A stretch of DNA of 30,878 nucleotides, taken from the IMG/VR virus record IMGVR_UViG_3300023172_000127, positions 1 to 30,878 of that record. The stretch is one strand, 5' to 3'. Below, piece by piece: positions 7,525 through 30,878 of this stretch. Within the stretch, counting starts at the first letter, position 1. Each line of letters starts with the position of its first letter. Source of the stretch: a virus. A program made the translations under genes and the position numbers. Under the pieces are notes generated by a model. The model ran no database searches. It was not told the origin of the DNA and was given only the letters and a program-made list of their open reading frames with translations.

Positions 7525-7553
7525 ATAATAATACGTTTTGTGCCAGTTGTCAA
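7525..7553 (-). promoter_or_regulatory. Sigma70-like promoter of gp32
   Basis: TTGACA (7548-7553), 17 bases, TATTAT (7525-7530) on the minus strand, about 75 bases before the gp32 start. The TGA stop (7550-7552) of the 448-residue gene is inside the -35 box. It separates early recombination genes from the late block upstream. Confidence 0.8.
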
Positions 7554-8896
7554 TTAAAAATTTTAGTTACATCATAATTTTCGAACATCTTATCAAATTC
7601 TTGTTCCCAATCAACCGACTCTGAACGTACTTCTTCTTTCTCAACGACACTTAGTTTAGGCATCAACTGTGTGATTGCACGAGCTGATTTACCTAGCATA
7701 GCATCGTCTTGAATACTGTCAACTAATTTACTTGCTTCTTGCAATTTAGTTGCCAATTCCTGTTCGCTTTCGTCTAATACGTTAGCGATATATTCCATTA
7801 CTGCACCTAATTGCGATCTTGCTGATTCCATTTTTGCTCTCATTGGATTCTCAGGATCTGCTTTTAAGTTAGTTCCTTCACGTAAACCAAACATGTCCTT
7901 TGATTCAACAAACGCAACTAAGTTACCGATTGCTTCTTCAATTGCTGCACGTTGTTCACGCACTACTTGCATTTCTTTTACAAGTGCTTGTACATATGGT
8001 AATGCACCTTCTACATTTTCATCAAAATATGAAACTGTAAATTTATCCTTAATATCTGCGAAATCATCTTCATCTAGTTTTTCACCATCACTTGAAAATG
8101 CTTCAAGTGCTGCAGCATATGTTTTGCTGCCTTTAAGTTTGTTTAAACCTTCACGAATATTTGCAATACGTGAACTTACTGCTTCTACGATTTCTGCAGT
8201 ATCTTCGTTGACCAGATTGTTTTTATCACTATAACGCTTAAACTCTTTAAGTTTCTTTAGTTCAATGCACTGTTCAACGATGTGTTTGCCAAAGTCATCA
8301 TATGGTGTTCCGCCTTCTTTGACATGACGCAACATAGCTCTACCACCTGCTAAGTTGTTGCTTGGAAACTTATAACGCTCTCCGTCTGCATTTTCAATAT
8401 AGATAGCACTAATATTTCTACTACGTGATCCACGCTGTTCTTCATTTACAGGCTTATTGTGTTTAATAATAAGTCTTGCGCTTTCTAATTTTTGATAGCT
8501 GCTTTTTGTGCTGCCATATGCTTGTCCGATTGCTTCGTTTACTGTATTCATGTCTCTTACCTTTTGTGCTTGGTAGTCAAAATCCTTTGGTTCGATTTCT
8601 TTGGTATAATTTTTTAATGTGTATTCAATAATACTTTTGTTTGCTAATTTTTTAACTTGGTATAGTGTATCTTTTAGCATGTCGATATCAGTTGTTGCAC
8701 CAATACTTACTTTGATTTCACGCCTGTTATCAGTTTCATCGAGACTAACCATTGTCCCAGTGTCATTCAAGTAGAAACGTCTACTTGTCGAAGGATCTAC
8801 TGTAGAATCACCTTCGTCTGTAAACATTTGTAATTCGTGCCCGTTGCCCTTGAGTATCTTAAAAATCTTTTCTGCAACTGTTTCTGAACTCAACAT
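7550..8896 (-). CDS. Hypothetical protein, late-expressed (448 aa)
   Basis: A 448-residue protein I do not recognise. The N-terminal ~150 residues are mixed, with RRFYLNDTGTMVSLDETDNR and a region with VKVSIGATTD-like strands. A middle segment, GERYKFPSNNLAGGRAMLRH, resembles a small DNA- or protein-binding motif. The C-terminal ~250 residues are highly helical, with coiled-coil character (EGLNKLKGSKTYAAALEAF, then LVKEMQVVREQRAAIEEAI). It is preceded by a textbook late promoter (8922-8929), so a virion or assembly role is likely, downstream of the large terminase. T4 offers no obvious equivalent at this position. Confidence 0.75.
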   Translation of the reverse strand: MLSSETVAEKIFKILKGNGHELQMFTDEGDSTVDPSTSRRFYLNDTGTMVSLDETDNRREIKVSIGATTDIDMLKDTLYQVKKLANKSIIEYTLKNYTKEIEPKDFDYQAQKVRDMNTVNEAIGQAYGSTKSSYQKLESARLIIKHNKPVNEEQRGSRSRNISAIYIENADGERYKFPSNNLAGGRAMLRHVKEGGTPYDDFGKHIVEQCIELKKLKEFKRYSDKNNLVNEDTAEIVEAVSSRIANIREGLNKLKGSKTYAAALEAFSSDGEKLDEDDFADIKDKFTVSYFDENVEGALPYVQALVKEMQVVREQRAAIEEAIGNLVAFVESKDMFGLREGTNLKADPENPMRAKMESARSQLGAVMEYIANVLDESEQELATKLQEASKLVDSIQDDAMLGKSARAITQLMPKLSVVEKEEVRSESVDWEQEFDKMFENYDVTKIFN

Positions 8897-11001: not shown

Positions 11002-11298
11002 TTAATTTTTGTACCTATCACTGACAGGTTTTGTCATTCTTATTGTTTGTGGAGATAGAGCTGGCTGACCATGAACATATGGTTCTCCACTTGGTTCAAA
11101 TGACTGCCCATCTGAACTAATTTTACTAGTTTGTGCATCACCACCTGTTAATCTTGTTGCTGTTTTTGCATCTAATCCTTGTAAAAATGCATTAATTTTA
11201 ATTTGATTATTGGTAGCTAGTACATCAGCATATTGCTGATCTATACTTGCTTCATTAATGCCTGCTAATTTTTTAATTCTTGCAAGATCATCATTCAT
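11002..11298 (-). CDS. Probable small internal head protein with KLAGI tag (98 aa)
   Basis: A 98-residue protein starting with a short amphipathic helix, LARIKKLAGINEAS. The KLAGI motif (10-14), followed by an acidic residue, occurs again twice in the neighbouring 450-residue protein. The remainder is polar and low in structure. In T4, small internal head proteins carry an N-terminal capsid-targeting peptide that the gp21 protease removes after an (L/I)-x-E site; the INE here would fit. That is inference. The ATG overlaps the TAG/TAA end of the gene upstream as TAATG. A strong terminator follows. Confidence 0.65.
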   Translation of the reverse strand: MNDDLARIKKLAGINEASIDQQYADVLATNNQIKINAFLQGLDAKTATRLTGGDAQTSKISSDGQSFEPSGEPYVHGQPALSPQTIRMTKPVSDRYKN

Positions 11299-12650
11299 TA
11301 GCGTAACTTCCTAAAATAATCTGGATTAGGTTTCGGAGGATTTGTATTAAATGGGTTTGGCCTTGGTCCGCCGAATTTTGGCCAAATTTTGTCCTGGTCA
11401 CCTTTTATATCAAATTTTTCACCTGGTTTTAAAATATATTCTGGATTTGGAAAAATTCCGCCGCCTGATCCGTCTCCTGAATATGGTAGATATTTCGGTA
11501 TGCCATCATCGCCTTTAATATCAAATACACTAGGTCTATCACGACGTTCTGGACGTTCACGTGGGTCAATTGTACCCATTTCTTCAATACCTGCTAGTTT
11601 CTTTAATATATTTAAAGATTCATCAACATCGTCGTCTTCTTCTTTGTCTTTTGCAGCTTTTTTCATTGACTCTTCTTTGTCGCCGTCGCCGTCGATATCA
11701 ATGTAGTCTGGTTTTGCACCTTCGTCTAAACTTTCGTTTACACTTTCCCATGTACCAGCATTTTCTTCGCCGTATTTCTTAATAAAGGCTGCTTTACTCA
11801 TTTTTTCAGCATCATCTATCATTGCATCTTTAACAGCGCCTTCTTTGACTTTGTGTACTTTTCCGTCAACTTCGAATTCATCTGCGCCTGCTGCTTTTGC
11901 TTTTGCAAGTGCACCTGAGTATGCATTACCTTCGCCTACTTCTGGTTCATCGATTTCAACTGATTCTCCTACTTCTAGCATTTTTTCAAACATAGCAATT
12001 GCTCTTTCACGTACATCAGTATCAGTTGCTTCTTCAAATTCTGGATCTTCTGCAAGATTATCAAGTGACTGGAGCATTATTTTTAATGCTTGTTCTTTGC
12101 TTTCATAGTCACCGTCCATTAATAAAACGGCAGCGTCTTCTACACGCATCCCAACTTCTTCATTGCCTTTTTTTGTAAACATGCCGTAATCATGAGTATG
12201 CGGGTTAGCATCTTCTACATTGCTTTCATAGTCTCCGATTGCTAGATTATAATCTGGTGCACCAATACTTGCTTCAGCTTTTAGTTTACCGCCAAAACCT
12301 TTTGCAGGTGTTCTAATTTGTTTAAAGTATGCTGCAATTTCTTTGTCCAAGTTTGGTGTTGCAGATTCTGCTTTAAATGCCGCATATGCTTCTGTTACAC
12401 TTTCTACTGTGTGGTCAGGATATACTTCTTCGTCTACAGTAACGTGATCACCTTTTGCTTTCAAATAACGGCGCAGACTTAAATCTGCATCGCTTCCCAT
12501 TGTTGCCATTGGGTCATCCATCATTTCTTCTTGTGGTCTTGTTGTTGCATCTTCAAATCCTGCGCCATCTGCTTCTACAGTTGGCTCTAGCTTGTTTAAA
12601 ACTTCTGGGTTTACGATGCCTGCTAGTTTAACTAAGTCTCTTAAATCCAT
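11298..12650 (-). CDS. Probable internal head/scaffold-like protein (450 aa)
   Basis: A 450-residue, acidic, low-complexity protein. It starts MDLRDLVKLAGIVNPE and repeats the tag at 351-355 (LNILKKLAGIEE). A segment at 315-326 (YIDIDGDGDKEE after Asp315) looks like a calcium-binding EF-hand-like loop, and DEFEVDGKVHKVKE at 257-270 is a short beta motif I recall from marine T4-like head proteins. The end is Pro/Gly-rich (PRPNPFNTNPPKPNPD). Multiple (L/I)-x-E sites would allow processing by a prohead protease. I infer a virion-internal or scaffold role. T4 gp22 is much smaller (269 residues), so no T4 name is given. It follows the 165-residue gene by four bases. Confidence 0.65.
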   Translation of the reverse strand: MDLRDLVKLAGIVNPEVLNKLEPTVEADGAGFEDATTRPQEEMMDDPMATMGSDADLSLRRYLKAKGDHVTVDEEVYPDHTVESVTEAYAAFKAESATPNLDKEIAAYFKQIRTPAKGFGGKLKAEASIGAPDYNLAIGDYESNVEDANPHTHDYGMFTKKGNEEVGMRVEDAAVLLMDGDYESKEQALKIMLQSLDNLAEDPEFEEATDTDVRERAIAMFEKMLEVGESVEIDEPEVGEGNAYSGALAKAKAAGADEFEVDGKVHKVKEGAVKDAMIDDAEKMSKAAFIKKYGEENAGTWESVNESLDEGAKPDYIDIDGDGDKEESMKKAAKDKEEDDDVDESLNILKKLAGIEEMGTIDPRERPERRDRPSVFDIKGDDGIPKYLPYSGDGSGGGIFPNPEYILKPGEKFDIKGDQDKIWPKFGGPRPNPFNTNPPKPNPDYFRKLR

Positions 12651-13172: not shown

Positions 13173-13706
13173 TTATTTATCAGAATCATTTGATTTAATA
13201 CGGTCTACAAGGTCGTTAAGTAAACTGCTTCTATCAAAAAATTCCTCTGCCTCACCCTCAATTGCAGTTTCACCTTTAGCATTTTCTTTAGCAATTTGAT
13301 GTTCAAGTTTCTTTTCTTCTAAATCTAATTTACGTTTGCGCATTTGCATTTCGATCATCTTTAGTTTTTTATCCATCTTTGCTGTTTTAGCAGTAATAGC
13401 ATTTGTCATCATTTTACTAGCACTATCAAACACAGGTGCAGCATGCCTATCTTCTACATTTTGTCCCAAGTCCATCAAGTCTTGAAACGCATTTATTGCT
13501 TGTTTAGCATAGTCGTCCATTTCGTGGTCTAATGCTTCTAAGTCACGGACAGCAGGAAGTGCTGCATCAATTTTGTCTACTGTGTCCATTGTTTCACGTA
13601 GTTTGTCTAAATCAAAACCAGTTTCTTCTTCTTGTATTGGTTGTTCGATCTCCTCACGTTCATTCATCGGAGGCAAATCAAATACTTCTTCAATTTTTCT
13701 ACTCAT
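13173..13706 (-). CDS. 16: Probable gp16, terminase small subunit
   Basis: A 177-residue helical protein (T4 gp16 is 164). The central region, NAFQDLMDLGQNVEDRHAAP followed by a helix with KMMTNAITAKTAKMDKKLKM, has the same layout as the T4 gp16 oligomerisation core (helix, a short turn with an R-H pair, then a long helix). The C-terminal part is a long charged coiled coil. gp16 forms rings that recognise DNA and stimulate gp17. The acidic N terminus (EEIEQPIQEEETG) is also gp16-like. The ATG overlaps the TGA of the gp4-like gene as ATGA. I have not aligned it, so the name is moderate confidence. Confidence 0.65.
   Translation of the reverse strand: MSRKIEEVFDLPPMNEREEIEQPIQEEETGFDLDKLRETMDTVDKIDAALPAVRDLEALDHEMDDYAKQAINAFQDLMDLGQNVEDRHAAPVFDSASKMMTNAITAKTAKMDKKLKMIEMQMRKRKLDLEEKKLEHQIAKENAKGETAIEGEAEEFFDRSSLLNDLVDRIKSNDSDK
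13174..13180 (-). promoter_or_regulatory. T4-type late promoter for the head-protein cluster
   Basis: ATAAATA on the minus strand, 22 bases before the ATG of the 165-residue gene, overlapping the TAA stop of the gp16 gene (13173-13175). A GAGG ribosome site lies between, unlike at the abutting promoters. Confidence 0.6.
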
Positions 13707-19651: not shown

Positions 19652-20812
19652 CTATTTGAATACTTTTAGTATGACCGTATCCTCATTCATTCTACCGTTC
19701 ATTTTAGTATCAGTAGTTTTTAGGTAACCAAACTGTGATTTTAGTTTATGTTTTGTAACTTTTTTCCAATTTGGAAGTACTTCATCAGGCTTACGTACAG
19801 TTTTTTGTCTACTATTGTTTTCATCAAAGAACTGTAGTGTAGTTCCTTTAACTTGAATAGTAGCATGTTCAGCTGCATAGTAAATACCTAGTTTACGTGT
19901 TTTACAGTTAAACACAACTACGGCTGTTGCACCAACTACATCTGCTGGATTAACACTTGCAATGCCATAATCTGCATCACTTGGCTTAAACTTCATCTTT
20001 TTAACAAGATCTTGTGCACTCTTTTGCTTAGGCTTACGAACAGCACGAGTTTGTTTTTTCTCTGCACGAATAATTTCAAGTGCTTGGAATACACGTTGGT
20101 AAAAACCGTGTAGTTCTTTTTTCTCTTTTGTACTTAGATGATTATAACCTTCTGCAAGTTGCTGTTCCATTTCGTCTTGTTTTTTTGCAGGAGGTAAATT
20201 GATTAGTTCAGTAAGTTCTTCTAGTTCACCTTCGTAAAACTTTTGAATAAAGCGAGCATGTCCTAAGTTAATTTCTAGTTTACGGAACAATTGCAACGGC
20301 TGCTTATCTTTAAGAGGATTCTTTTTAGCATCACGCATCCAATCATCGACCCACTGGTCAAGTTCCTCCATCTTATCAATTGTTGCTTCTTCTAGTCGTT
20401 CTTGAATACTAGGAATATACTTTGTCTTTTTTACTTTTTCTTCTGCACGTTTGATTTCAACAATTTTGTTGCCTTCTTCAGCAAGTTCTTTGATCCATTT
20501 GTCAAGTTTACCAACATAATCTGGATGCATATTGTTAGGAGCACGTTCTTCCATAAATGCTGCAGTAGCATAATGGCTTTTACCGCCAACTTTCCAGTCT
20601 GGTAGCTTGTTAATTGCTGCTACTGTTTTCTTGTCATAGTTAGCTTTAATGTAGGCTTTTACTTTTGTAAGCCATTCTTTAGATTCCATTAAGTAATGAA
20701 TATGATATTGTGCTTTATGCCAGCTATCAGTCGGGACCATATCCCATACTGCTATTCTACGTTTTGCACGTGGTGCTTTCTTTTTAAGTTTAACTCCAGC
20801 AGCTTTTGCCAT
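19652..20812 (-). CDS. Basic hypothetical protein (386 aa)
   Basis: A 386-residue protein rich in Lys, with a basic N terminus (KLKKKAPRAKRR) and several charged helices (KLDKWIKELAEEGNKIVEIK, then ELDQWVDDWMRDAKKNP). The C-terminal ~110 residues are beta-rich (ATAVVVFNCKTRKLGIYYAA) and end with KMNGRMNEDTVILKVFK. The composition suggests nucleic acid binding. I recall conserved unknown proteins like this in T4-like marine phages but have no function for them. It has AGGAG before the ATG and a sigma70-like promoter at 20839-20866, so it may be expressed early although gp13 follows directly. Confidence 0.75.
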   Translation of the reverse strand: MAKAAGVKLKKKAPRAKRRIAVWDMVPTDSWHKAQYHIHYLMESKEWLTKVKAYIKANYDKKTVAAINKLPDWKVGGKSHYATAAFMEERAPNNMHPDYVGKLDKWIKELAEEGNKIVEIKRAEEKVKKTKYIPSIQERLEEATIDKMEELDQWVDDWMRDAKKNPLKDKQPLQLFRKLEINLGHARFIQKFYEGELEELTELINLPPAKKQDEMEQQLAEGYNHLSTKEKKELHGFYQRVFQALEIIRAEKKQTRAVRKPKQKSAQDLVKKMKFKPSDADYGIASVNPADVVGATAVVVFNCKTRKLGIYYAAEHATIQVKGTTLQFFDENNSRQKTVRKPDEVLPNWKKVTKHKLKSQFGYLKTTDTKMNGRMNEDTVILKVFK

Positions 20813-20838
20813 AACACTCTCCTGACTATTTCTTACTT

Positions 20839-20866
20839 ATAATAGCATCATTATATATGCTGTCAA
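20839..20866 (-). promoter_or_regulatory. Sigma70-like promoter, leftward, in the divergent region
   Basis: TTGACA (20861-20866), 16 bases, TATTAT (20839-20844) on the minus strand, 26 bases before the ATG of the 386-residue gene. It lies in the 72-base gap where transcription direction switches and ends four bases from the rightward late box of gp14. Confidence 0.6.
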
Positions 20867-20869
20867 CCG

Positions 20870-20876
20870 ATAAATA
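20870..20876 (+). promoter_or_regulatory. T4-type late promoter of gp14, rightward
   Basis: ATAAATA on the plus strand, eight bases (TAAGTGCT) before the gp14 ATG at 20885. The implied leader is only two or three bases, and no ribosome binding site is present. It is back to back with the leftward sigma70-like promoter. Confidence 0.6.
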
Positions 20877-20884
20877 TAAGTGCT

Positions 20885-22045
20885 ATGCCAAGATTAAGTT
20901 TATATAAACCGACAAAAACCAATGATTATAACTTTATGGATCGTCAGATTCGTGAACAGTTCTGGGTAGGCGGTACAGGTGTACATGTACACAAGTATGT
21001 AGGGCCTGCTGTTGTTCCAACTGACGGAGATCCAAGTACACCAGACTACATAGATGGTAGAGAAATTGATCCACTAAGTGGAGAATTTATCAACATTGAC
21101 GGTATTATCAACGAAACAAAAATACAAGACTTGCTGTTTATGGAAAACAGAGACCGCAAGTACGATTCAGACATTTACGAACTACGTGGCATTTATAACG
21201 TAACTGACAATGACTTTGAACTTACACAGTTCGGTTTATTTTTAAGCAATGATATGTTATATATGTCATTTCACATGAACGAAATGGTAGAAATACTTGG
21301 TAGAAAACTATTAGCAGGTGATGTGTTAGAGTTACCACACTTACGTGACGACTTATTACTTAATGCAGATAAAAAAGCAATCAACAAATATTATGTTATC
21401 AGCGATGCTAACAGAGGTGCTGAAGGTTTTTCACCTACATGGTATCCACATATTTGGAGAGTAAAACTAAGTCCACTAACAGACAGTCAAGAATACAACG
21501 ATATACTTGGAGATGCAAAAGGCGACGGCAGTCTTAAAGACGATATCAGTACATACATCACAGAATACAAAATCAATGACGCAGTTGTTGCTAGTGCTGA
21601 AGCACAAGATCCAGATGGTACAACAGACAGAGATCATCTATTTGGTTATGATTATGCAACAAGCGGCGGTATTGTAAACAAAGACATTACATATAATCAC
21701 GGTGAACCAATTGCAACAGGTACAGAGTTTCCAAGTAGTCCTGCAAACGGAGATTACTTTATACGTACAGACTTCAAACCTAATAGAATGTTTGTTCGCA
21801 GAGGAAACAAATGGCACAGAGTATACGATAACTTGACAGATCGTACTTGGACAGACATTACATATAACGCAAGTGATTATATTAATAATAACAACACAAC
21901 TGTTGTTTCAGATCAAGAATTTAACGAAAGACAACCTATAAGCCAGGTAATTACACCTAAACCAGATAACGAAGTCGAATACGACCCAAGTTCTGCTTAT
22001 GCAATTGCTGGTTATTATAGCGAAGGGTATGTCGAGGACAGCTAA
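20885..22045 (+). CDS. 14: gp14-like neck protein
   Basis: A 386-residue protein (T4 gp14 is 256) with the features I recall from cyanophage gp14: MPRLSLYKPTKTNDYNFMDR at the start, IQDLLFMENRDRKYD (80-94), then YYVISDANRGAEGFSPTWYP (169-188) and HIWRVKLSPLTDSQEYNDIL (189-208). With gp13 it forms the neck after DNA packaging. Compared with T4 it has an added C-terminal region containing one copy of the GD-x-F...W module (about 281-314), also seen in gp18, gp15 and the fibres. It heads the rightward late block, followed by fibre genes. Confidence 0.8.
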   Translation: MPRLSLYKPTKTNDYNFMDRQIREQFWVGGTGVHVHKYVGPAVVPTDGDPSTPDYIDGREIDPLSGEFINIDGIINETKIQDLLFMENRDRKYDSDIYELRGIYNVTDNDFELTQFGLFLSNDMLYMSFHMNEMVEILGRKLLAGDVLELPHLRDDLLLNADKKAINKYYVISDANRGAEGFSPTWYPHIWRVKLSPLTDSQEYNDILGDAKGDGSLKDDISTYITEYKINDAVVASAEAQDPDGTTDRDHLFGYDYATSGGIVNKDITYNHGEPIATGTEFPSSPANGDYFIRTDFKPNRMFVRRGNKWHRVYDNLTDRTWTDITYNASDYINNNNTTVVSDQEFNERQPISQVITPKPDNEVEYDPSSAYAIAGYYSEGYVEDS

Positions 22046-22063
22046 AGATTAAAGGAAAAGAAA

Positions 22064-23200
22064 ATGGCGATTGTTAAAAGATTAACTAAAGGTAGTGCAC
22101 TAACACATGCAGAACTCGATGGTAACTTCACTGACCTAGACACCCGTGTTAGTACATTAGAAACTGCACCAGACAGTGATAGTCAAACACTAACACTAGT
22201 CGGAACAGATTTAAGCATTAGTAGTGGTAACACTGTTGACCTAAGCGGACTAGGCGGTGGTGCTGGCGGTATTGCACTTACAGATATCAGTGTTACAAGT
22301 CTTGCAGCCGCAGGCAGCGGAACACTTACATACGATAACACAACTGGTGTATTTGATTATACTCCGCCGGATTTAAGTTCGTTTAGTACATTTGACGGTG
22401 ATTATAACAGTTTAACCAATAAACCAACTATACCAAGTGCATTAACAGATTTAGGAATCGTTGACGGAACAAATGGTCAAGTATTAACAACAGATGGTGC
22501 AGGTAGCTTTACATTTACTACTGTAACAGGTGGTACTGCTTACACTGATGCTGATGTCGATACACACCTTAACACTAGTACTGCAACTGCTAATCAAATA
22601 CTAAGTTGGGATGGAGCAGACTATGCATGGGTTGCGGATCAAACAGGTGCAGGCGGAACATACAGTGATACCGATGTTGCAACATACTTAAACGGCAACT
22701 TAGACACAAGTATTATTCCAGATACAAATGCTTCATATGATTTAGGCAGTGCTGAATACAAAATCAGACATTTGTACCTAAGTGACAACAGTTTAAAATT
22801 TACAGACACAACAGATCCACTAAACATTGTAGAATATAGTGTAGGCAGAACTGGTACAGATATTACATTTAACGGTAGTGCACTAAAAAGTACAAGTTCA
22901 GAAGATGTAGTAGATGCAGGTACAATCGATATTACAAAAACAAATCACTTTGTAACAAACGGAACTACTGCAGTACTTCCAGATGGTACATACATGGGAC
23001 AAAAATTAGAGTTTTGGAGAGTAGTAGGAACAGGATCTGTTGATATTAACGTAAACAGTGCAATTTATATGGACGGCGGAAATACTGCAACAGGTCCAGC
23101 TCCTATTGTTTGGAGATTAGGCGATGCTAACCAAACACTTTACAGTTGTATATGGAACGGAGTTGCGTGGGTACTATCGCACGGCGGCCCAGGAGTATAA
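22064..23200 (+). CDS. Tail or neck fibre protein (378 aa)
   Basis: A 378-residue fibre-type protein. The N terminus, KRLTKGSALTHAELDGNFTD (5-24), followed by a short heptad segment LDTRVSTLE, is a common attachment end of marine phage fibres. The YNSLTNKPTIPSALTDLGI region (114-132) is the usual repeat of tail fibres. Residues about 160-192 (DVDTHLNTS...SWDGADYAWVA) are nearly duplicated in the next gene. The C-terminal part is a beta-rich domain ending SCIWNGVAWVLSHGG. It probably trimerises and binds the host or another fibre. AAAGGAAAAG precedes the ATG. The position between gp14 and gp15 could mean a neck rather than a baseplate fibre. Confidence 0.8.
   Translation: MAIVKRLTKGSALTHAELDGNFTDLDTRVSTLETAPDSDSQTLTLVGTDLSISSGNTVDLSGLGGGAGGIALTDISVTSLAAAGSGTLTYDNTTGVFDYTPPDLSSFSTFDGDYNSLTNKPTIPSALTDLGIVDGTNGQVLTTDGAGSFTFTTVTGGTAYTDADVDTHLNTSTATANQILSWDGADYAWVADQTGAGGTYSDTDVATYLNGNLDTSIIPDTNASYDLGSAEYKIRHLYLSDNSLKFTDTTDPLNIVEYSVGRTGTDITFNGSALKSTSSEDVVDAGTIDITKTNHFVTNGTTAVLPDGTYMGQKLEFWRVVGTGSVDINVNSAIYMDGGNTATGPAPIVWRLGDANQTLYSCIWNGVAWVLSHGGPGV
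22559..22636 (+). repeat. 78-bp duplicated fibre module, copy 1
   Basis: Encodes DTHLNTSTATANQILSWDGA followed by DYAWVA in the 378-residue fibre. It aligns without gaps with 23570-23647 in the next gene; most differences are at third codon positions. Confidence 0.8.
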
Positions 23201-23212
23201 AGGATAAAATAA

Positions 23213-24553
23213 ATGGCAATTAATTTTCCAAGTAACCCAAATGTTAATGATACACATACAGTAGGTAGTACTGTATGGACGTGGGACGGCAGTAGTTGGA
23301 ATGGTGTATCACATGATCCAATTGAAATAGCAACACTAACATATCCGAGTGTTGATGGAACAGCTGGACAGTTATTAATAACAGACGGCGCTGGAAATTT
23401 GTCATTTGGTAATCTTAGTCCTGCAACATTATCAACTGTAAGTATAGACGCACTCAGTGATGTAGATATTACTAGTGTTGCACCAACAGACGGACAAGTT
23501 CTCGTTTGGGATAATGCAAGTAGTACGTTTATTCCGGGATCAAATGCAGGATATTCAGACAGTTCAGTTGATACACACTTAAACACAAGTGCTGCAACTA
23601 GTAATCAAGTACTAAGTTGGGATGGATCAGACTACGCATGGGTTGCAGCGTCAAGTGGTACTAGCGGTGCATTTAGTACTACATACGACCAAGTACAAAT
23701 TGAAACAACAACTCCAAATACAGATTCATTAAATGAATTATGGTTTAATCCCGACACTGCTACATGGAGTAAAAGTATACAAAATCCAACTACCGGTGCT
23801 GTACTTGATACACAAGTTGCATCTATCGGAGGTGGCGGGCCAAGTATAGTATTCCCTTCAACAACATCCGGAACTATCTTTTTTGGTTACGGATTATATA
23901 GTTCGAATGGAGTGGAAGTGGTTTTTACAACTCCTCTTTGGCTGGTTTCGTATAGCCATCCTAGTTTTGACGCAGTCGAAATTCACAGTTATATATTAGA
24001 AGACGATACTGAAGTAATTCTATATCCAAATGCACCAAGTTCTTATAGTAATAACGGAACAGATTGGGCAACACAACGAGTTAAATCTCTAAAATTTACT
24101 AGTGGTTATAGAGCTAATAATACAAACGGTACACTTATAGCTGCTGGTGCTCCGATTTGGGACGAACTAGAACAAACATTTGATAAACCTATTGTAATAG
24201 ATGGAGTAATTGAAACTAGTACTGCACTTACTGGTGCTACCGGTACTGTTGTCCATGACACAAGTAACAGTCATATTTTTACACACAGTAGTATTGCTGC
24301 AGACTTTACAGCAAACTTTACTAATTTATCATTAGTTGCTAATCAAACTACTGCACTAACACTTGTACTAACACAAGGTGCTACAGCATATATTCCAACT
24401 GCAGTAGAAATTGGAGGCACAGCACAAACAATTTTATGGCAAGGCGGAAGTGCACCGAGCGGAACAGCAAGTGGTACTGATGTTGTGACATTCTCTATAA
24501 TTTATAATGGATCTAGTTATACAGTTTTAGGTAACTTAGCATCATATTCATAA
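23213..24553 (+). CDS. Fibre protein with C-terminal beta domain (446 aa)
   Basis: A 446-residue fibre protein. It opens with a GD/W-type module (INFPSNPNVNDTHTVG, then VWTWDGSSWNGV, 3-32) as in many marine phage fibres. It carries the duplicated DTHLNTS...DYAWVA module (120-145). A middle segment with SLNELWFNPDTATWSKSIQN (172-191) follows. The last ~100 residues (about 345-446, ending TFSIIYNGSSYTVLGNLASYS) are a beta domain that I recall at the ends of fibre-like proteins in T4-like marine phages. It lies 12 bases after the previous fibre gene, with AAAGGAT before the ATG, and probably forms part of the same appendage. Confidence 0.8.
   Translation: MAINFPSNPNVNDTHTVGSTVWTWDGSSWNGVSHDPIEIATLTYPSVDGTAGQLLITDGAGNLSFGNLSPATLSTVSIDALSDVDITSVAPTDGQVLVWDNASSTFIPGSNAGYSDSSVDTHLNTSAATSNQVLSWDGSDYAWVAASSGTSGAFSTTYDQVQIETTTPNTDSLNELWFNPDTATWSKSIQNPTTGAVLDTQVASIGGGGPSIVFPSTTSGTIFFGYGLYSSNGVEVVFTTPLWLVSYSHPSFDAVEIHSYILEDDTEVILYPNAPSSYSNNGTDWATQRVKSLKFTSGYRANNTNGTLIAAGAPIWDELEQTFDKPIVIDGVIETSTALTGATGTVVHDTSNSHIFTHSSIAADFTANFTNLSLVANQTTALTLVLTQGATAYIPTAVEIGGTAQTILWQGGSAPSGTASGTDVVTFSIIYNGSSYTVLGNLASYS
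23570..23647 (+). repeat. 78-bp duplicated fibre module, copy 2
   Basis: Second copy of the fibre module, encoding DTHLNTSAATSNQVLSWDGS followed by DYAWVA in the 446-residue protein. It suggests duplication or recombination between fibre genes. Confidence 0.8.
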
Positions 24554-24562
24554 GGAAACAAT

Positions 24563-27500
24563 ATGCCAATTATTAGTGCATTAAACGGAAGTTTTTATAT
24601 ACGTGCAGTACTTTCGATCGCAAATTCTGCAACTGCATATCAAGTTGTTACTGAAGCGTCATTACATAGCATTACTGGATACTATTCAAACGGTGTTTCA
24701 TTTAACAATGACGGAACAAAAGCATACTTAGATGATATGGAAATTTCCGGATCAACTTCTTTTTCAATCTCAGAATACAGTTTAAGTACTCCATACGATC
24801 TTGCAACTGCTACTTACACTACAAGAAAACTTGCTAGTTATCCTGGGTTATCAGATACCGGAGGTACAACGTGGAATAACGACGGAACAAAAATTTACGT
24901 AGGTGCAGAAATGCAAAGTGGAGAAACAGATCGTCCTAGAATTGTCGAATTTAATGTATCAACACCGTACGATATATCAACTATGTCTACATCACCAAAT
25001 ACTTATATTAATTCTACTAGTTATACAAGAAATCTTACATGGAACAACGACGGAACTAAATTGTTTGCAGCCATCGACAGTTCTGGTATAGTAGAAATAA
25101 CAGCTTCTACTCCATATTCTTTAGTTGGGGCCACTAAAACAACATTCAATTCTACATCACTGGTCGGTGAAAGCGCCAGACTTTGGGGCATAGACTTTAA
25201 TAAAACAGGAACTATTGCGTTTATTGTACAATCTCAAGTTATAGACGATAAAATTTGGAAATTAGAATTATCAACTCCATATGATTTAACTACTGCAACA
25301 GTTGTCGATACATATATTACAACAGATTATGATATAACGTATCCTTTTAGTCTCAGAGTAGCTGATAATTATTTAATAATACATGGTAATTCAGATGCAG
25401 GGCCTGGCAGATCGTTTACTTATTTTGATTCTTCTGTTGTTGGCACTATAAATGCTCCAAAAACAGAAGCAACTATGACCGCAAGAGCGTACATCGACAC
25501 ATCCGATTCTAGTGTTGAATATGACTATTATTCTGGTAATATTAGAATTTTAGACAATGGAAGTAAAGTAGCATATAGTGGTAGTTATAATGACGGTACT
25601 AGTCACCGTGACATGCGTATAGCAACATTAAATACACCTTATGATATTTCATCTTCTACTACTGCTACATCTATTTTTGAGCCATCTAATTTTGTAAGTA
25701 CACCTTACATACCAAATACAGAAGCGCCGAGAGACTTTTGGATAAGCAATGACGGGTTAACACTTTATGTAATGTATGAAAATTGGGCAACGTCTCAAAC
25801 ATATTGGGCAAGAGAAATATATAAATTTGCACTGCCGAGTCCTTGGGATTTAAGCAGTATCACAGACTGGACACCTACCCAAACATTTTCTATTGCTAGT
25901 ACTACAGCCGGTGAACAAACCGCAGGGATGGGCACATCAGATCATTTTCCGTTTAGTTTTTGGTTTAATGATAACGGTACAAAATTATTCATCTTCACAG
26001 CGGACAGTAATGCAACAGCTCCAGATCATTTATTAGAATATCCGTTAAGTACGCCATACGATTTAGCATCTGCAGGAACAAGAACATGGCACAAATTTAT
26101 TGATGGAACGGACCCGCTTAACCAACTACAAAGCGGAGAGTCATTTGTTCCTAATAGGATTGAATTCAATGATGACGGTACAAAATTATTTGGAATCTTT
26201 AGTAAGTCAGGATTTATAGTAGGTATTACAACGTGGACATTAGGAACAGCATGGGATATTAGTACATTATCTAAAGACTCGTGGGAACAAGATATCAGTG
26301 ATGCATATACAGACGATAGCAGTAATATATTAGGAGCAAGTTCAAGAGGAACATTCCCAACTGCATTTGCAAACAACAATTTGTATATTACAGATATCTT
26401 ACATACATCTGCTGGCGGGTTAAATACTAGTCCAATATATCGTTGGGATGTAAGTGACATTGACTATAGTGGTACTCGTGCGTTTTATAGCTATTCAATT
26501 ACAAATGATACTCAGTCTAATTCAGTAGACGAAGGCAGCACTGTTGTGTTTACAGTTTCAGCACCTGATATACCGGACGGTTCGACAATATATTGGGAAA
26601 TTGATCCATATACAAGCACCGAAATAGAAGATTTCGATCCAGCAACTCGCAGCGGAACAGCAACTTTTTCCAATGGAACGACCACTATCACCGTTAACAT
26701 AGCAACTGATATACTCGACGAAACTAGCCAAAATGAAAGATTTAATCTCAGAACTGCTAGAAATCAAAATGTTTATAACGATTTATTTCCACTTGTATCA
26801 TCTAACTTAATTTCCATAGGTGAAGTTCCTTGGATTAGTTTAGATCACACAATTCAAACACCTGGATTGGCTACAACCGACAGACTAGGAGGAAACAAAG
26901 CATCTAAAGGAATGAATAGCACATACACTGTTGTTGCTTCTTACAACAAAGATGATGGTGCAAACGCAAGCTCAGGCGAAGTCTACTTATATAATACTAG
27001 TACAGGTGCACTAGAAAGAACATTTACAAATCCAAATGCGTATAATACAACTACTAACGATTTCTTTGGTTATTCGGTTGGGTTGTCTGACAGTTATTTA
27101 ATTGTAGGTGCTATTTTTGAAGATTCTTCAGGTGGCAATAGTTCAGGTAAAGCATATGTATTTAATTTAAGCGATGGATCTCTTAAATATACACTAAACA
27201 ATCCAAATACATACGGAACAGAAGAAAGCGACCATTTCGGAAATTCAGTTGCTATAACTGACAATTATGCAATAGTTGGTGCTTACTTCGAAGATTCAGG
27301 CACATTTGGTCAAGAAACAGGTGCAGCATATATATTTGACATGAGTGATGGATCAGTTGCATATACACTTACTAACCCAGATAGCGAGCCAGGCACACAA
27401 GATTGGTTTGGTTTTTCTGTTAGTATAAATCAACACTATGCTGCCGTTGGAGCACCATTAGAATCGTATGATATCAGTGCTACAAATACTGGAGGTAAAG

Positions 27501-28972
27501 CGTATCTTTATAGACTTGATACAGGTGCATTATTACACACTATTGATAACCCCGGGTCAAATGCAACATATAATGCAAATGACCAGTTTGGTTGGGATAT
27601 ATCATTAACAAATAAACATTTGATTGTAGGTGCTAACCAAGCATCAACAGTCGACGACAGTGGAACAAATACAAATGCTGGTAAAGTTGATGTATTTAAT
27701 CTCCGAGACGGTACACATCTTTATACTCTGGAAAATCGTCCATTTGGCGGCATAAATGATTATTTTGGCGATACTGTAGATGGATCAGACAACTTCTTAA
27801 TTGCAGGTACAAGAGACTTAGATGGTACGAATAATGGTGGTGCATACATTTATAATATTAACAGTGGCGATTATATAACAACGTTAAGTAATCCAAATAC
27901 ATACAACGGACCCGACGGTGATAGATTTGGATCTACAGTCGCTATTTTAGATGATGGAACTGCAGCAGTTGGCGCTTGGGGTGAAGATACTGCATCTACT
28001 ACTGATAGCGGTGCACTCTACATTTATAGTTCAACTTATCCAGTGTCAACAGGAGCATACACATATAAAGCTATAGGTGATCGTGGACTTATTGCTGGTG
28101 CAATAAACGCTACATATGATTATAAAATACAATATTTTGATATAACAACATTGGGCAATGCAGCTGACTTTGGAACAAGATATCCAGGCTCAGGTTATTC
28201 AGCATCTTTATCTAATGCAATACGTGGCATGTGGGCAGGCGGGACCACAGCTACAGAAACCGGCGGTGGTTACAATGCTACATATTGGGTTACAATATCT
28301 AGTTTAGGTAATGCATACATGTGGACTACTTTACTAGAATCAACTGCATATAGTGCTGGAGTTTGCGACGGCGACAGAGGTGTAATTTTTGGAGGACCTG
28401 AGAATTTTGATGATTATAGTAATATTATGCAATATATTTCAATGTCTATTGCTTCATATCAGGGATACGATTTTGGAAATCTTACGTATGCTGTATCACA
28501 AACAGCAGGCGTAGGAGATAACACATATGGTATTAAGGCAGGCGGTTACTACACTACTTCATATACTCGTCGAATTGAAATGGAGAAATTCACTATTCAA
28601 ACTACCGGTGGTGCTGCATACTTAGGCGATTTAACAGAAGCTAGAAGAAAACTAACTGGGACAAGTAATGGGACACGAGGACTATTTGCAGGCGGCGAAA
28701 ATTTCGGCTCAGTAAGCACTATAGATTATATAACTATTGCAACAGACACTAATGCAACCGACTTTGGTGATTTATCTTCTGCTTTACGAGGAGTATCTGC
28801 ATGTTCAAATGAAACAAGAGCAGTATTTGGCGGCGGATATGATGGTAGTTCTGGTAGTACTGCTTTACAATATGTAAGTTACGACACGCCAGGAACTGCT
28901 ACGAGTTTTGGTAGTTTAGTAGCAGGAACAAATAATCAAGGCGGGTCCGGGCTATCAGGCAATGCTGCATAA
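24563..28972 (+). CDS. Giant repeat-rich adhesin with several propeller-like regions (1469 aa)
   Basis: The largest protein here. Residues ~40-640 hold repeats of the form FNNDGTKLF...STPYDL (NDGTK at about 49, 106, 162, 538; STPYDL-like at 75, 133, 182, 237, 357, 496), a WD/YVTN-like beta-propeller pattern. Residues ~645-745 resemble a Calx-beta domain (SVDEGSTVVFTVS, ending in a DETSQNERFNL strand). Residues ~755-1160 are FG-GAP-like repeats (DHFGNSVAITDNYAIVGA and relatives, with tip F-G). Residues ~1165-1465 are kelch-like (RGLFAGG, RAVFGGG, NATDFGDL). Such proteins bind glycans or receptors, so a host-recognition role at neck or tail is inferred. No transmembrane or obvious trimerisation domain is seen. 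AAGGA precedes the ATG. Confidence 0.85.
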   Translation: MPIISALNGSFYIRAVLSIANSATAYQVVTEASLHSITGYYSNGVSFNNDGTKAYLDDMEISGSTSFSISEYSLSTPYDLATATYTTRKLASYPGLSDTGGTTWNNDGTKIYVGAEMQSGETDRPRIVEFNVSTPYDISTMSTSPNTYINSTSYTRNLTWNNDGTKLFAAIDSSGIVEITASTPYSLVGATKTTFNSTSLVGESARLWGIDFNKTGTIAFIVQSQVIDDKIWKLELSTPYDLTTATVVDTYITTDYDITYPFSLRVADNYLIIHGNSDAGPGRSFTYFDSSVVGTINAPKTEATMTARAYIDTSDSSVEYDYYSGNIRILDNGSKVAYSGSYNDGTSHRDMRIATLNTPYDISSSTTATSIFEPSNFVSTPYIPNTEAPRDFWISNDGLTLYVMYENWATSQTYWAREIYKFALPSPWDLSSITDWTPTQTFSIASTTAGEQTAGMGTSDHFPFSFWFNDNGTKLFIFTADSNATAPDHLLEYPLSTPYDLASAGTRTWHKFIDGTDPLNQLQSGESFVPNRIEFNDDGTKLFGIFSKSGFIVGITTWTLGTAWDISTLSKDSWEQDISDAYTDDSSNILGASSRGTFPTAFANNNLYITDILHTSAGGLNTSPIYRWDVSDIDYSGTRAFYSYSITNDTQSNSVDEGSTVVFTVSAPDIPDGSTIYWEIDPYTSTEIEDFDPATRSGTATFSNGTTTITVNIATDILDETSQNERFNLRTARNQNVYNDLFPLVSSNLISIGEVPWISLDHTIQTPGLATTDRLGGNKASKGMNSTYTVVASYNKDDGANASSGEVYLYNTSTGALERTFTNPNAYNTTTNDFFGYSVGLSDSYLIVGAIFEDSSGGNSSGKAYVFNLSDGSLKYTLNNPNTYGTEESDHFGNSVAITDNYAIVGAYFEDSGTFGQETGAAYIFDMSDGSVAYTLTNPDSEPGTQDWFGFSVSINQHYAAVGAPLESYDISATNTGGKAYLYRLDTGALLHTIDNPGSNATYNANDQFGWDISLTNKHLIVGANQASTVDDSGTNTNAGKVDVFNLRDGTHLYTLENRPFGGINDYFGDTVDGSDNFLIAGTRDLDGTNNGGAYIYNINSGDYITTLSNPNTYNGPDGDRFGSTVAILDDGTAAVGAWGEDTASTTDSGALYIYSSTYPVSTGAYTYKAIGDRGLIAGAINATYDYKIQYFDITTLGNAADFGTRYPGSGYSASLSNAIRGMWAGGTTATETGGGYNATYWVTISSLGNAYMWTTLLESTAYSAGVCDGDRGVIFGGPENFDDYSNIMQYISMSIASYQGYDFGNLTYAVSQTAGVGDNTYGIKAGGYYTTSYTRRIEMEKFTIQTTGGAAYLGDLTEARRKLTGTSNGTRGLFAGGENFGSVSTIDYITIATDTNATDFGDLSSALRGVSACSNETRAVFGGGYDGSSGSTALQYVSYDTPGTATSFGSLVAGTNNQGGSGLSGNAA

Positions 28973-28974
28973 AA

Positions 28975-28981
28975 ATAAATA
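28975..28981 (+). promoter_or_regulatory. T4-type late promoter of gp15
   Basis: ATAAATA on the plus strand, 19 bases before the gp15 ATG, with a TAGGAT ribosome site between. It allows gp15 to be made without reading through the 4.4-kb adhesin gene. Confidence 0.6.
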
Positions 28982-29000
28982 CAAGTAGATAGGATTATAG

Positions 29001-30401
29001 ATGGCCACTGGTAACACTAAAATAACTGCAGTACCGTACTTTTACGATAGACAATTACGCAGATACATTCAGCAATTTATTAGAATCTTTGCTGGATTTC
29101 AAATTGCTATGAGTACAGATCAAAACGGTAATACCAAGTATCAAACTGTTCCAGTACGTTACGGTGATGTGAATCGTATGGCAGCACACATTGTAAAAGA
29201 AAACAGTGAAAATATGCTTAACAGTGTTCCGTTTATCAGTTGCTATGTTACTGGACTAGAACTTGCTCCGCAGAATAGAACATATCCACAGTTTGAAGAA
29301 AACGTACCTGTGTACGAAAAAAAGTATAACGAAGAAACAAGTAACTACGAAAATGAAATAGGTAATGTGTACACTATCAAAAGACACCAACCTGTTCCAT
29401 ACATACTTACAATGCAGTGCGATTTGTGGACAAGTAATACAGAACAAAAATTACAATTGTTAGAACAAATACTTGTATTGTTTAATCCAACACTTAACAT
29501 TCACACAACAAACAACCCACTAGACTGGAGTAGTTTAAGTTATGTTGAACTGTTAAGTAGTACGTGGAGCATACGTAGTATTCCAGGTGGCGTAGATGAT
29601 ATCATTGATATTAGTAGTTTAACATTTGAAATGCCAGTACTAATTAACCCACCTGCAAAAGTTATGCGTAACACAGTTATTCATACTATTATTGATAACA
29701 TAGATGAAGTTACAGATCAAGACTTGGATAGTTTACGTGCTGGAGGAAGTTATACTCCAATCTTTACAAGTTATGCAGTTGTAACACTTGAAAACTTTAA
29801 AATGAAATTCGAAGTAGATGACAGTGGAAATGCTACTGCTAGCCTTAGACATCGTAACACAAGCAACACAGACGACAACGGAGGTATATTAGACTGGCAA
29901 CAAGAACTACTTCCATACGGCGAACTACGTGATGGTATTACACAAATTAGATTAAAGCAAACTGCTGATCCAGGAGACACAAGTAAAGATATTATTGGCA
30001 CTATTTACAAAACTACAGATCCAAATATACTTAAAGTTGTATTAGATACTGATACATTACCTGCAAACACAGAAGATGCAGTTGATGCAGTAATCGATCC
30101 TACATTCAACTATCCAGGAGACGGAACATTAACTGCCGCTGCTAATGGAGATAGATATTTGCTACTAGCAGATATTCCAAGCGGAAGCGGATGGGCAAGC
30201 AGTTCAGCAAAAGCAAACGATATTATTCAGTATGACAGTTCTACTGGACAGTGGAACATTACATTTGACAGTGATGTTATAACTGCTGAACAATTTACAA
30301 CAAATATAACAACTCAGGACAAACTCAAATGGACTGGCTCACAGTGGGTCAACGCATTTGAAGGAACATACAACCCAGGATACTGGCGAATTTACTTATG
30401 A
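29001..30401 (+). CDS. 15: gp15-like tail sheath stabiliser, extended
   Basis: A 466-residue protein (T4 gp15 is 272). The N terminus has the gp15 pattern: VPYFYDRQLRRYIQQFIRIF (11-30), VPVRYGD (50-56), a PYILTMQCDLWTSNTEQKLQ region (133-152) and an FEMPVLINPPAKV strand (209-221). gp15 caps the tail tube and sheath and joins the neck to the tail. Residues beyond ~245 are an extension with a linker, a GD-x-Y...W module (about 383-420) and KWTGSQWVNAFEG (443-455), again like the fibres and sheath. Its end overlaps the Nudix gene as ATGA. Preceded by a late promoter and ribosome site. Confidence 0.82.
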   Translation: MATGNTKITAVPYFYDRQLRRYIQQFIRIFAGFQIAMSTDQNGNTKYQTVPVRYGDVNRMAAHIVKENSENMLNSVPFISCYVTGLELAPQNRTYPQFEENVPVYEKKYNEETSNYENEIGNVYTIKRHQPVPYILTMQCDLWTSNTEQKLQLLEQILVLFNPTLNIHTTNNPLDWSSLSYVELLSSTWSIRSIPGGVDDIIDISSLTFEMPVLINPPAKVMRNTVIHTIIDNIDEVTDQDLDSLRAGGSYTPIFTSYAVVTLENFKMKFEVDDSGNATASLRHRNTSNTDDNGGILDWQQELLPYGELRDGITQIRLKQTADPGDTSKDIIGTIYKTTDPNILKVVLDTDTLPANTEDAVDAVIDPTFNYPGDGTLTAAANGDRYLLLADIPSGSGWASSSAKANDIIQYDSSTGQWNITFDSDVITAEQFTTNITTQDKLKWTGSQWVNAFEGTYNPGYWRIYL

Positions 30402-30856
30402 TAACAGCAAGCGGTTGCTGCTTTTTAGCACTTAATACAGGACGCATAATGCTACAACAACGTAGCAAGGAAGTTTCACATCCTCTTACTTGGAGTTTTT
30501 GGGGAGGTAAAAGTGAACACAATGAACGTCCAGTAGAAACATTGTTACGTGAATGTGAAGAAGAAATGGGTAAACTGCCAAGTTTAGAAAAAGTTTATCC
30601 TATACATACATTTTTAAGTGAAGATAAAAAGTTTACATATCATACATATGTTATTACAGTGTATGAAGAATTCATTCCTAACACAAACGGAGAAAGTGCC
30701 GGATACGCATGGGTTGAACTAAATGGTTGGCCAAAGCCTTTACATAGAGGCGCACGTGTTGTATTAGAAAAACCTGATATGATTGATAAGATTAAAACTA
30801 TTTGGGATAATGCAAAGGATTCAGAAGACTTATCAAACTGGTTAGATAGTTTTTAA
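30398..30856 (+). CDS. Nudix hydrolase
   Basis: A 152-residue protein with a complete Nudix box: Gly37, Glu43, then RECEEEMG at 51-58 (GX5EX7REUXEEXG pattern). The Glu cluster binds the metal for hydrolysis of a nucleoside diphosphate linked to another group. The substrate is not visible: T4 NudE acts on Ap4A, ADP-ribose and FADH, and other phage Nudix enzymes decap RNA or clean nucleotide pools. The ATG overlaps the gp15 TGA (ATGA), so this enzyme is coupled to a late structural gene, an odd pairing. The remaining bases 30857-30878 show nothing. Confidence 0.9.
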   Translation: MITASGCCFLALNTGRIMLQQRSKEVSHPLTWSFWGGKSEHNERPVETLLRECEEEMGKLPSLEKVYPIHTFLSEDKKFTYHTYVITVYEEFIPNTNGESAGYAWVELNGWPKPLHRGARVVLEKPDMIDKIKTIWDNAKDSEDLSNWLDSF

Positions 30857-30878
30857 AAACTGCTATCAATTGCAGAGC

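Follow-up and report, generated by a model that had tools for sequence, protein, structure and literature searches.

The receptor-binding protein (RBP) of phage phi11 contains a five-bladed propeller whose cavity could hold receptor GlcNAc (PMC4901313). In the Sinorhizobium jumbo phage AP-J-162, an integrin-like 'hemagglutinin' (gp213) has been described that is most similar to a protein of Atu_ph07 (PMC11242549), and mass spectrometry of CBB virions detected the kelch protein CBB_552 together with CBB_233 (gp15) and CBB_234, a homologue of the border protein introduced below (PMC5259590). Proteins with FG-GAP, NDGTK and kelch repeats are already known in other phages, as are FG-GAP and kelch virion proteins in related jumbo phages; the decorations and fibres of jumbo phages of the Rak2/PA5oct/Atu_ph07 kind are poorly understood. 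Here we analyzed a 30,878-nucleotide stretch of viral DNA (IMG/VR record IMGVR_UViG_3300023172_000127; hereafter the window), a 30.9-kb fragment of an incomplete genome, and in it one gene, the focal gene, which is distinctive in combining several repeat types in one chain, in occupying a fixed island site, and in exchanging modules on its N-terminal side. We consider it likely that this gene encodes a virion-associated, modular multi-propeller tail adhesin, i.e., an RBP, whose targeting is changed by swaps of N-terminal modules.

An earlier note on this DNA, made from the letters alone, had proposed a single 1469-amino acid (aa) frame with NDGTK/STPYDL repeats, a Calx-beta-like domain, FG-GAP-like repeats and kelch-like repeats in that order. 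This was confirmed by motif counts (overlapping matches included) that far exceeded the means of shuffled sequences: 11 NDGTK-like matches vs. 0.03, six STPYD-like matches vs. 0.04, five FG..V matches vs. 0.07 and four TR..F.GG-like matches vs. 0.07. Self-alignment periodicity was significant for the FG-GAP part only (57 residues; 0/200 shuffles as good) and borderline or non-significant outside it, and for this reason the remaining repeats were assessed by motif counts and by profiles. The Pfam scan recognised FG-GAP_2 (PF14312) as the only family, in 7 stretches with 159.4 bits (E 2.3e-47), passing the curated cut-off of 23 bits. Two of the four proposed beta-repeat types are weaker: the sandwich scored 13.7 bits (E 0.066) against Calx-beta (PF03160), under the cut-off of 27, and the C-terminal repeat region matched none of the Pfam kelch models at E ≤ 10. 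The whole focal protein had no match in the PDB by phmmer, nor in NCBIfam, PHROGs or PADLOC, and megablast of window positions 20000-30878 against phages gave no match. Base composition is like that of the neighbours, as had been noted, with a G+C fraction of 0.36-0.38 in the gene and a range of 0.35-0.42 in the window. Among related viral contigs (labelled L001 and so on), a complete copy of the gene is present in L001 at 100% identity, and partial copies are found in L003, L004 and L005 at 99-100%.

Structure prediction was carried out by segment with AlphaFold2. The model of aa 1-641, built on a 14-sequence alignment with a mean predicted local distance difference test score (pLDDT) of 72, contains two propellers, P1 and P2, with five blades each by our count, P1 being confident (pLDDT mostly 70-94 across aa 40-290) and P2 less so (44-92 in most blocks). 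The top VIA-align match of P1 was the phi11 RBP (Z 16.2, root-mean-square deviation [rmsd] 3.9, 230 aligned), which was tied with its 80alpha homologue and with unrelated propellers. P2 gave tandem-propeller structure matches to LRP6/megalin, and P1 and P2 together matched by profile the archaeal surface-layer YVTN-type propeller 1l0q (E 1.1e-9), so that the NDGTK part belongs with YVTN-type/tandem propellers by both predicted fold and profile similarity. In the model of aa 640-1469 (mean pLDDT 57), the FG-GAP part was modelled confidently and, as a predicted model, matched the integrin alphaM head (Z 36.9, rmsd 3.0, 352 aligned). DxDxDG-type calcium motifs were not found in this part, and integrin-like calcium binding by the module was rejected on that ground. 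Strands were predicted in the sandwich (pLDDT 37-77), which scored under the cut-off for Ig_3 (17.3 bits) and whose profile had no convincing match in the PDB. The C-terminal repeats occur in nine aligned sequences and read by eye as TRGxFxGG-YxTIxTxGNAxDFGDL-R, which at the pattern level resembles the kelch order GG, Y, W, R; their profile likewise had no convincing PDB match, and aa 1160-1469 were modelled with a pLDDT of about 33 only, perhaps because repeat registers were mixed in the alignment of these last 310 residues. Of the propellers that had been proposed to stand in series, three were borne out by these predictions and the kelch-like part was left without support.

The genomic setting of the focal gene was compared between the window and its relatives. 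In the window, the border protein and the tail sheath stabiliser gp15 are separated by an island of 6,955 bp with three co-directional genes, the focal gene being the largest and lying directly upstream of gp15; the gene is thus encoded within a tail/fibre gene cluster, a setting that counts toward an RBP. In 23 distinct relatives this slot is empty and the stop of the border gene overlaps the start of gp15 (TAATG). The border gene and gp15 are adjacent and followed by a NUDIX gene in CBB, Munch and Paride, and a lysin lies between them in Phosso and Atu_ph07. Filled slots of 0.95 to 11.4 kb were found in 10 distinct viral-contig records including the window, short slots being over-represented because short contigs span both borders only when the slot is small. 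The slot contents in relatives include subtilases, an S74 endosialidase-chaperone protein and stand-alone FG-GAP genes, the latter two kinds coming from L052, whose contig stops short of the left border. Subtilase-like genes recur in the island (L007:689-2470, L056:8108-9874, L118:8226-9992 and L039:4769-6349; called as Peptidase_S8 by Pfam in L007, L056 and L039 and by matching ends in L118). An S8 peptidase is also found near the FG-GAP giant gene of Phosso, and L037:8837-12469, on the opposite strand downstream of gp15, holds a fibre-like (862 aa) and a subtilase-like (344 aa) gene.

Given that subtilases recur in the island of relatives, degradative functions belong there, and propellers are common enzyme scaffolds; both points favour a tail enzyme, i.e., a propeller-type glycan hydrolase or lyase that degrades host polysaccharide. 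We regard such an enzyme as unlikely, since the Pfam, NCBIfam and PHROGs searches gave no match to a catalytic family. The sialidase Asp-box was not found either, and a sialidase-type enzyme is not supported. A non-virion protein, exported or surface-exposed in the infected cell and altering the aggregation or adhesion of infected cells, appears more improbable still: surface adhesins of bacteria commonly contain FG-GAP and Calx-beta-like domains, which would suit that role, but the focal protein has no clear signal peptide, its start is not basic and its peak 15-residue hydropathy is 1.36, while the gene sits among structural genes beside tail-fibre genes and the S74-chaperone protein occupies the same slot in relatives.

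The N-terminal side of the focal protein differs between close relatives. L002 is 96-97% identical to the window in the DNA upstream and 93% identical from the 3' part of the gene onward, and its focal counterpart is a 1930-aa protein with an unrelated N-terminus. The counterpart in L035 (2020 aa) has a third type of N-terminus and contains an additional FG-GAP propeller, and that in L007 (1475 aa) has the window-type N-terminus. P1 is unrelated in L002 and L035; between the window and L002 it shows 26% aa identity and is in practice unalignable, i.e., replaced. Synonymous divergence (dS) between the window and L002 was 0.075 in gp15, 0.15 in the border protein, 0.72 in P2, 0.30 in the sandwich, 0.033 in the FG-GAP part and 0.023 in the kelch-like part, with a break around aa 640-760. 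Between the window and L007, P1 had a dS of 0.29 (0.20-0.38) vs. 1.05 (0.82-1.40) in gp15, and the body 0.7-1.3; between the window and L035, where P1 is replaced, the values were 0.46 in gp15, 0.39 in the border protein and about 1.0 in the adhesin body. The modules therefore carry separate histories. The C-terminal two-thirds of island gene 2 are exchanged together with P1, and the counterparts of this gene end in kelch-like repeats in L002 and L035 but not in the window or L007. A 57-bp start stub is kept between the window and L002 although the DNA on both sides of it does not align; it is also present in L007, L035 and, more loosely, L056, and a degenerate DNA scan for it gave matches in this phage group only. 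The stub, which could serve as a foothold for recombination, is the sole part common to all N-termini, whereas the body is the constant region. An 80-bp repeat, 87.5% identical between its copies at 22556-22635 and 23567-23646, is common to both upstream fibre genes and is another possible foothold. The term 'switchable', used of the host range in the earlier note, is supported at the level of sequence, where whole modules are exchanged between close relatives.

Several observations weigh against the modular tail adhesin. A genome-contig scan with P1 and P2 in bacterial genomes gave 25 pattern matches, none of them a relative, and the L002 allele is known from one contig, the only one returned by a scan with the L002 N-terminal module. 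In most phage fibres the N-terminus is kept and the C-terminus varies; the focal protein is the opposite, being variable at its N-terminal side bar the stub. The single L002 contig would also suit an origin of the module differences in chimeric assembly or in ordinary divergence, but this view is largely refuted and we give it very little weight: the L035 allele is present on separate contigs from two samples (L035/L039, L036 and L132), the window allele is found in four further contigs from three samples, the flanks of L002 differ from the window by 3-4%, which makes L002 a distinct strain, and the P1 and gp15 dS values between the window and L007 are unlike those of a chimera with window DNA.

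Copies of the window allele hardly vary, with no differences in the focal gene of L001, two bases in L003 and four bases in L005, and the ratio of nonsynonymous to synonymous divergence between the window and L007 is 0.48 in P1 and 0.2-0.3 in the other modules; the positive selection at propeller faces that had been suggested is not supported. Diversification of the adhesin by a diversity-generating retroelement is not supported, given that the 80-bp repeat shows no A-directed substitution bias and copies of one allele are near-invariant; in addition, no reverse transcriptase was found among the scanned genes of the window, some small ORFs being unscanned and the genome incomplete.

It is possible, though we hold it to be the weaker proposition, that the focal protein acts on the tail or head as a whisker or decoration protein, one that provides weak, reversible adhesion to cells or particles and not specific receptor recognition. 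CBB and Atu_ph07 bear hair-like whiskers, to which the CBB kelch virion proteins have been tentatively linked (PMC5259590, PMC6102473), and the large size with serial propellers and the position of the island next to neck/tail genes would agree with this. However, the whisker genes of CBB are unassigned and CBB has no island at this site, and selection on specificity better explains why a single module is rapidly swapped while the remainder is retained.

For the tail adhesin that we favour, the following mechanism is proposed. The protein would be assembled into the virion and carried on the particle, where the serial propellers would present binding faces to the host surface and bind a receptor. 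The front modules are probably receptor-specific: the target would be set by the N-terminal module that is exchanged, and attachment, reach or a second contact may come from the FG-GAP/kelch-like body. Behind the conserved 14-codon start, recombination replaces the N-terminal propeller and, in the adjacent fibre gene, the C-terminal part, while most of the FG-GAP/kelch-like C-terminal body is retained; such exchange would change host specificity. With a fixed position for adhesin islands, several natural alleles distinguished by a single propeller module, and a body that is conserved, the locus allows a direct test of which propeller governs attachment to the host, and of module exchange as opposed to point mutation as the source of host-range change.

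The border protein itself carries a C-terminal GYVxxGYV-type tail in 8 of the 10 filled-slot records (the window, at 21980-22045, L002, L039, L103, L078, L118, L116 and L056) and in none of the 23 empty-slot records (Fisher p 3e-6, relatedness of records not corrected for); in the window and L002 it takes the looser form AIAGYYSEGYVEDS. The tail may serve island proteins as a docking site, or it may just belong to the insert. A more speculative extension, which we consider doubtful, is that the slot is a plug-in site at which island adhesins would dock via the GYV tail near the neck/upper tail, their front propellers being swapped by recombination to re-target the particle.

The features described are collected in Table 1. 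Judged from its genes, the window most likely derives from a jumbo-type T4-like phage, because of its structural genes, the kinship of its terminase and the border-protein homologues in jumbo phages. Genes for the tail sheath, tail tube, large terminase, UvsX, UvsY and single-strand binding protein are on the minus strand, the large terminase being nearest to those of PA5oct-type Pseudomonas phages (56%) and Sinorhizobium phage Phosso (53%). A border-protein homologue is present in 60 phage records, and every record listed belongs to a PA5oct-, Atu_ph07- or Rak2/CBB-type jumbo phage, with the exception of one of 86 kb. The gp15 family profile matches T4 gp15 (3j2m; E 4.6e-7); a sequence tie between the border protein and T4 gp14 was sought but not obtained. 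To judge from the relatives of the repeats and from the sample numbers, the phage may be marine or coastal. A cluster of six tRNAs (Thr, Ser, Asn, Met, Leu, Arg) is located at 2087-2732, and the minus-strand genes at 11298-12650, 7550-8896 and 13173-13706 are further members of the structural cluster, with matches in PHROGs only.

Table 1. Coordinates in the window of the focal gene, its modules and the neighbouring genes.
Feature	Position	Strand	Basis
Border virion structural protein, phrog_11591, homologue of CBB_234, left island border, C-terminal ...GYVEDS tail	20885..22045	+	E 7.6e-87
Island gene 1, tail-fibre-like, 378 aa	22064..23200	+	phrog_9729 tail fiber, E 5.4e-11
Island gene 2, tail-fibre-like, 446 aa	23213..24553	+	phrog_677, E 1.2e-5
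Conserved start stub, 57 bp (ribosome-binding region and first 14 codons), MPIISALNGSFYIR	24548..24604	+	94.7% identical to L002
Focal gene, putative multi-propeller adhesin, 1469 aa	24563..28972	+	Intact open ORF, ATG start
Module P1, aa 15-300, NDGTK/STPYD five-bladed propeller, exchanged module	24605..25462	+	AlphaFold2, structure match
Module P2, aa 301-640, second NDGTK propeller, about five blades	25463..26482	+	AlphaFold2, structure and profile matches
Beta-sandwich, aa 640-765, Calx-beta/Ig-like by pattern only	26480..26857	+	Predicted strands
FG-GAP module, aa 766-1162, seven-bladed integrin-alpha-like propeller	26858..28048	+	PF14312 and structure match
C-terminal region, aa 1163-1469 (307 aa), about six 50-aa TRGxFxGG...DFGDL repeats, kelch-like by pattern	28049..28969	+	
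gp15 tail sheath stabiliser, right island border	29001..30401	+	PF16724, E 5.4e-24
NUDIX hydrolase, syntenic with gp15 in CBB, Munch and Paride	30398..30856	+	PF00293, E 5.5e-14

When set beside the described systems, P1 shares with phi11 gp45 and the 80alpha RBP (PDB 5efv, 6v8i) a five-bladed propeller that is used there for host recognition (PMC4901313), at 11% identity and in a match that non-phage propellers equal; in phi11 each chain of a coiled-coil trimer bears a single propeller, whereas the focal protein has several in series and no coiled coil was detected in it. The kelch proteins CBB_550/552/554 of CBB, a related Rak2-like jumbo phage, also have propeller repeats (PMC5259590), but they carry recognised kelch InterPro domains, of which none scored in the focal protein, and are encoded at a different genome location. 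In the Roseobacter phages CRP-9 and CRP-738, proteins with NDGTK/STPYD repeats are encoded next to genes that carry a tail structural annotation; these are 56-kb-class phages, and the match, at about 30% identity, does not include the FG-GAP part. Over the FG-GAP region, proteins of the cyanophages S-TIM5 and S-MbCM6 annotated as virion structural are about 28-30% identical; they come from other phage lineages and are built differently, with lengths of about 400 aa and about 7000 aa. With these proteins, a similar one in Phosso and the AP-J-162 hemagglutinin (PMC11242549), the statement that FG-GAP repeats are unusual in a T4-like tail was too strong. Compared by description and not by sequence, gp213 of AP-J-162 is like the focal protein in having an FG-GAP/integrin-type fold in a related jumbo phage; it is a stand-alone protein of 375 aa, whereas in the focal protein the FG-GAP propeller is one module of several.

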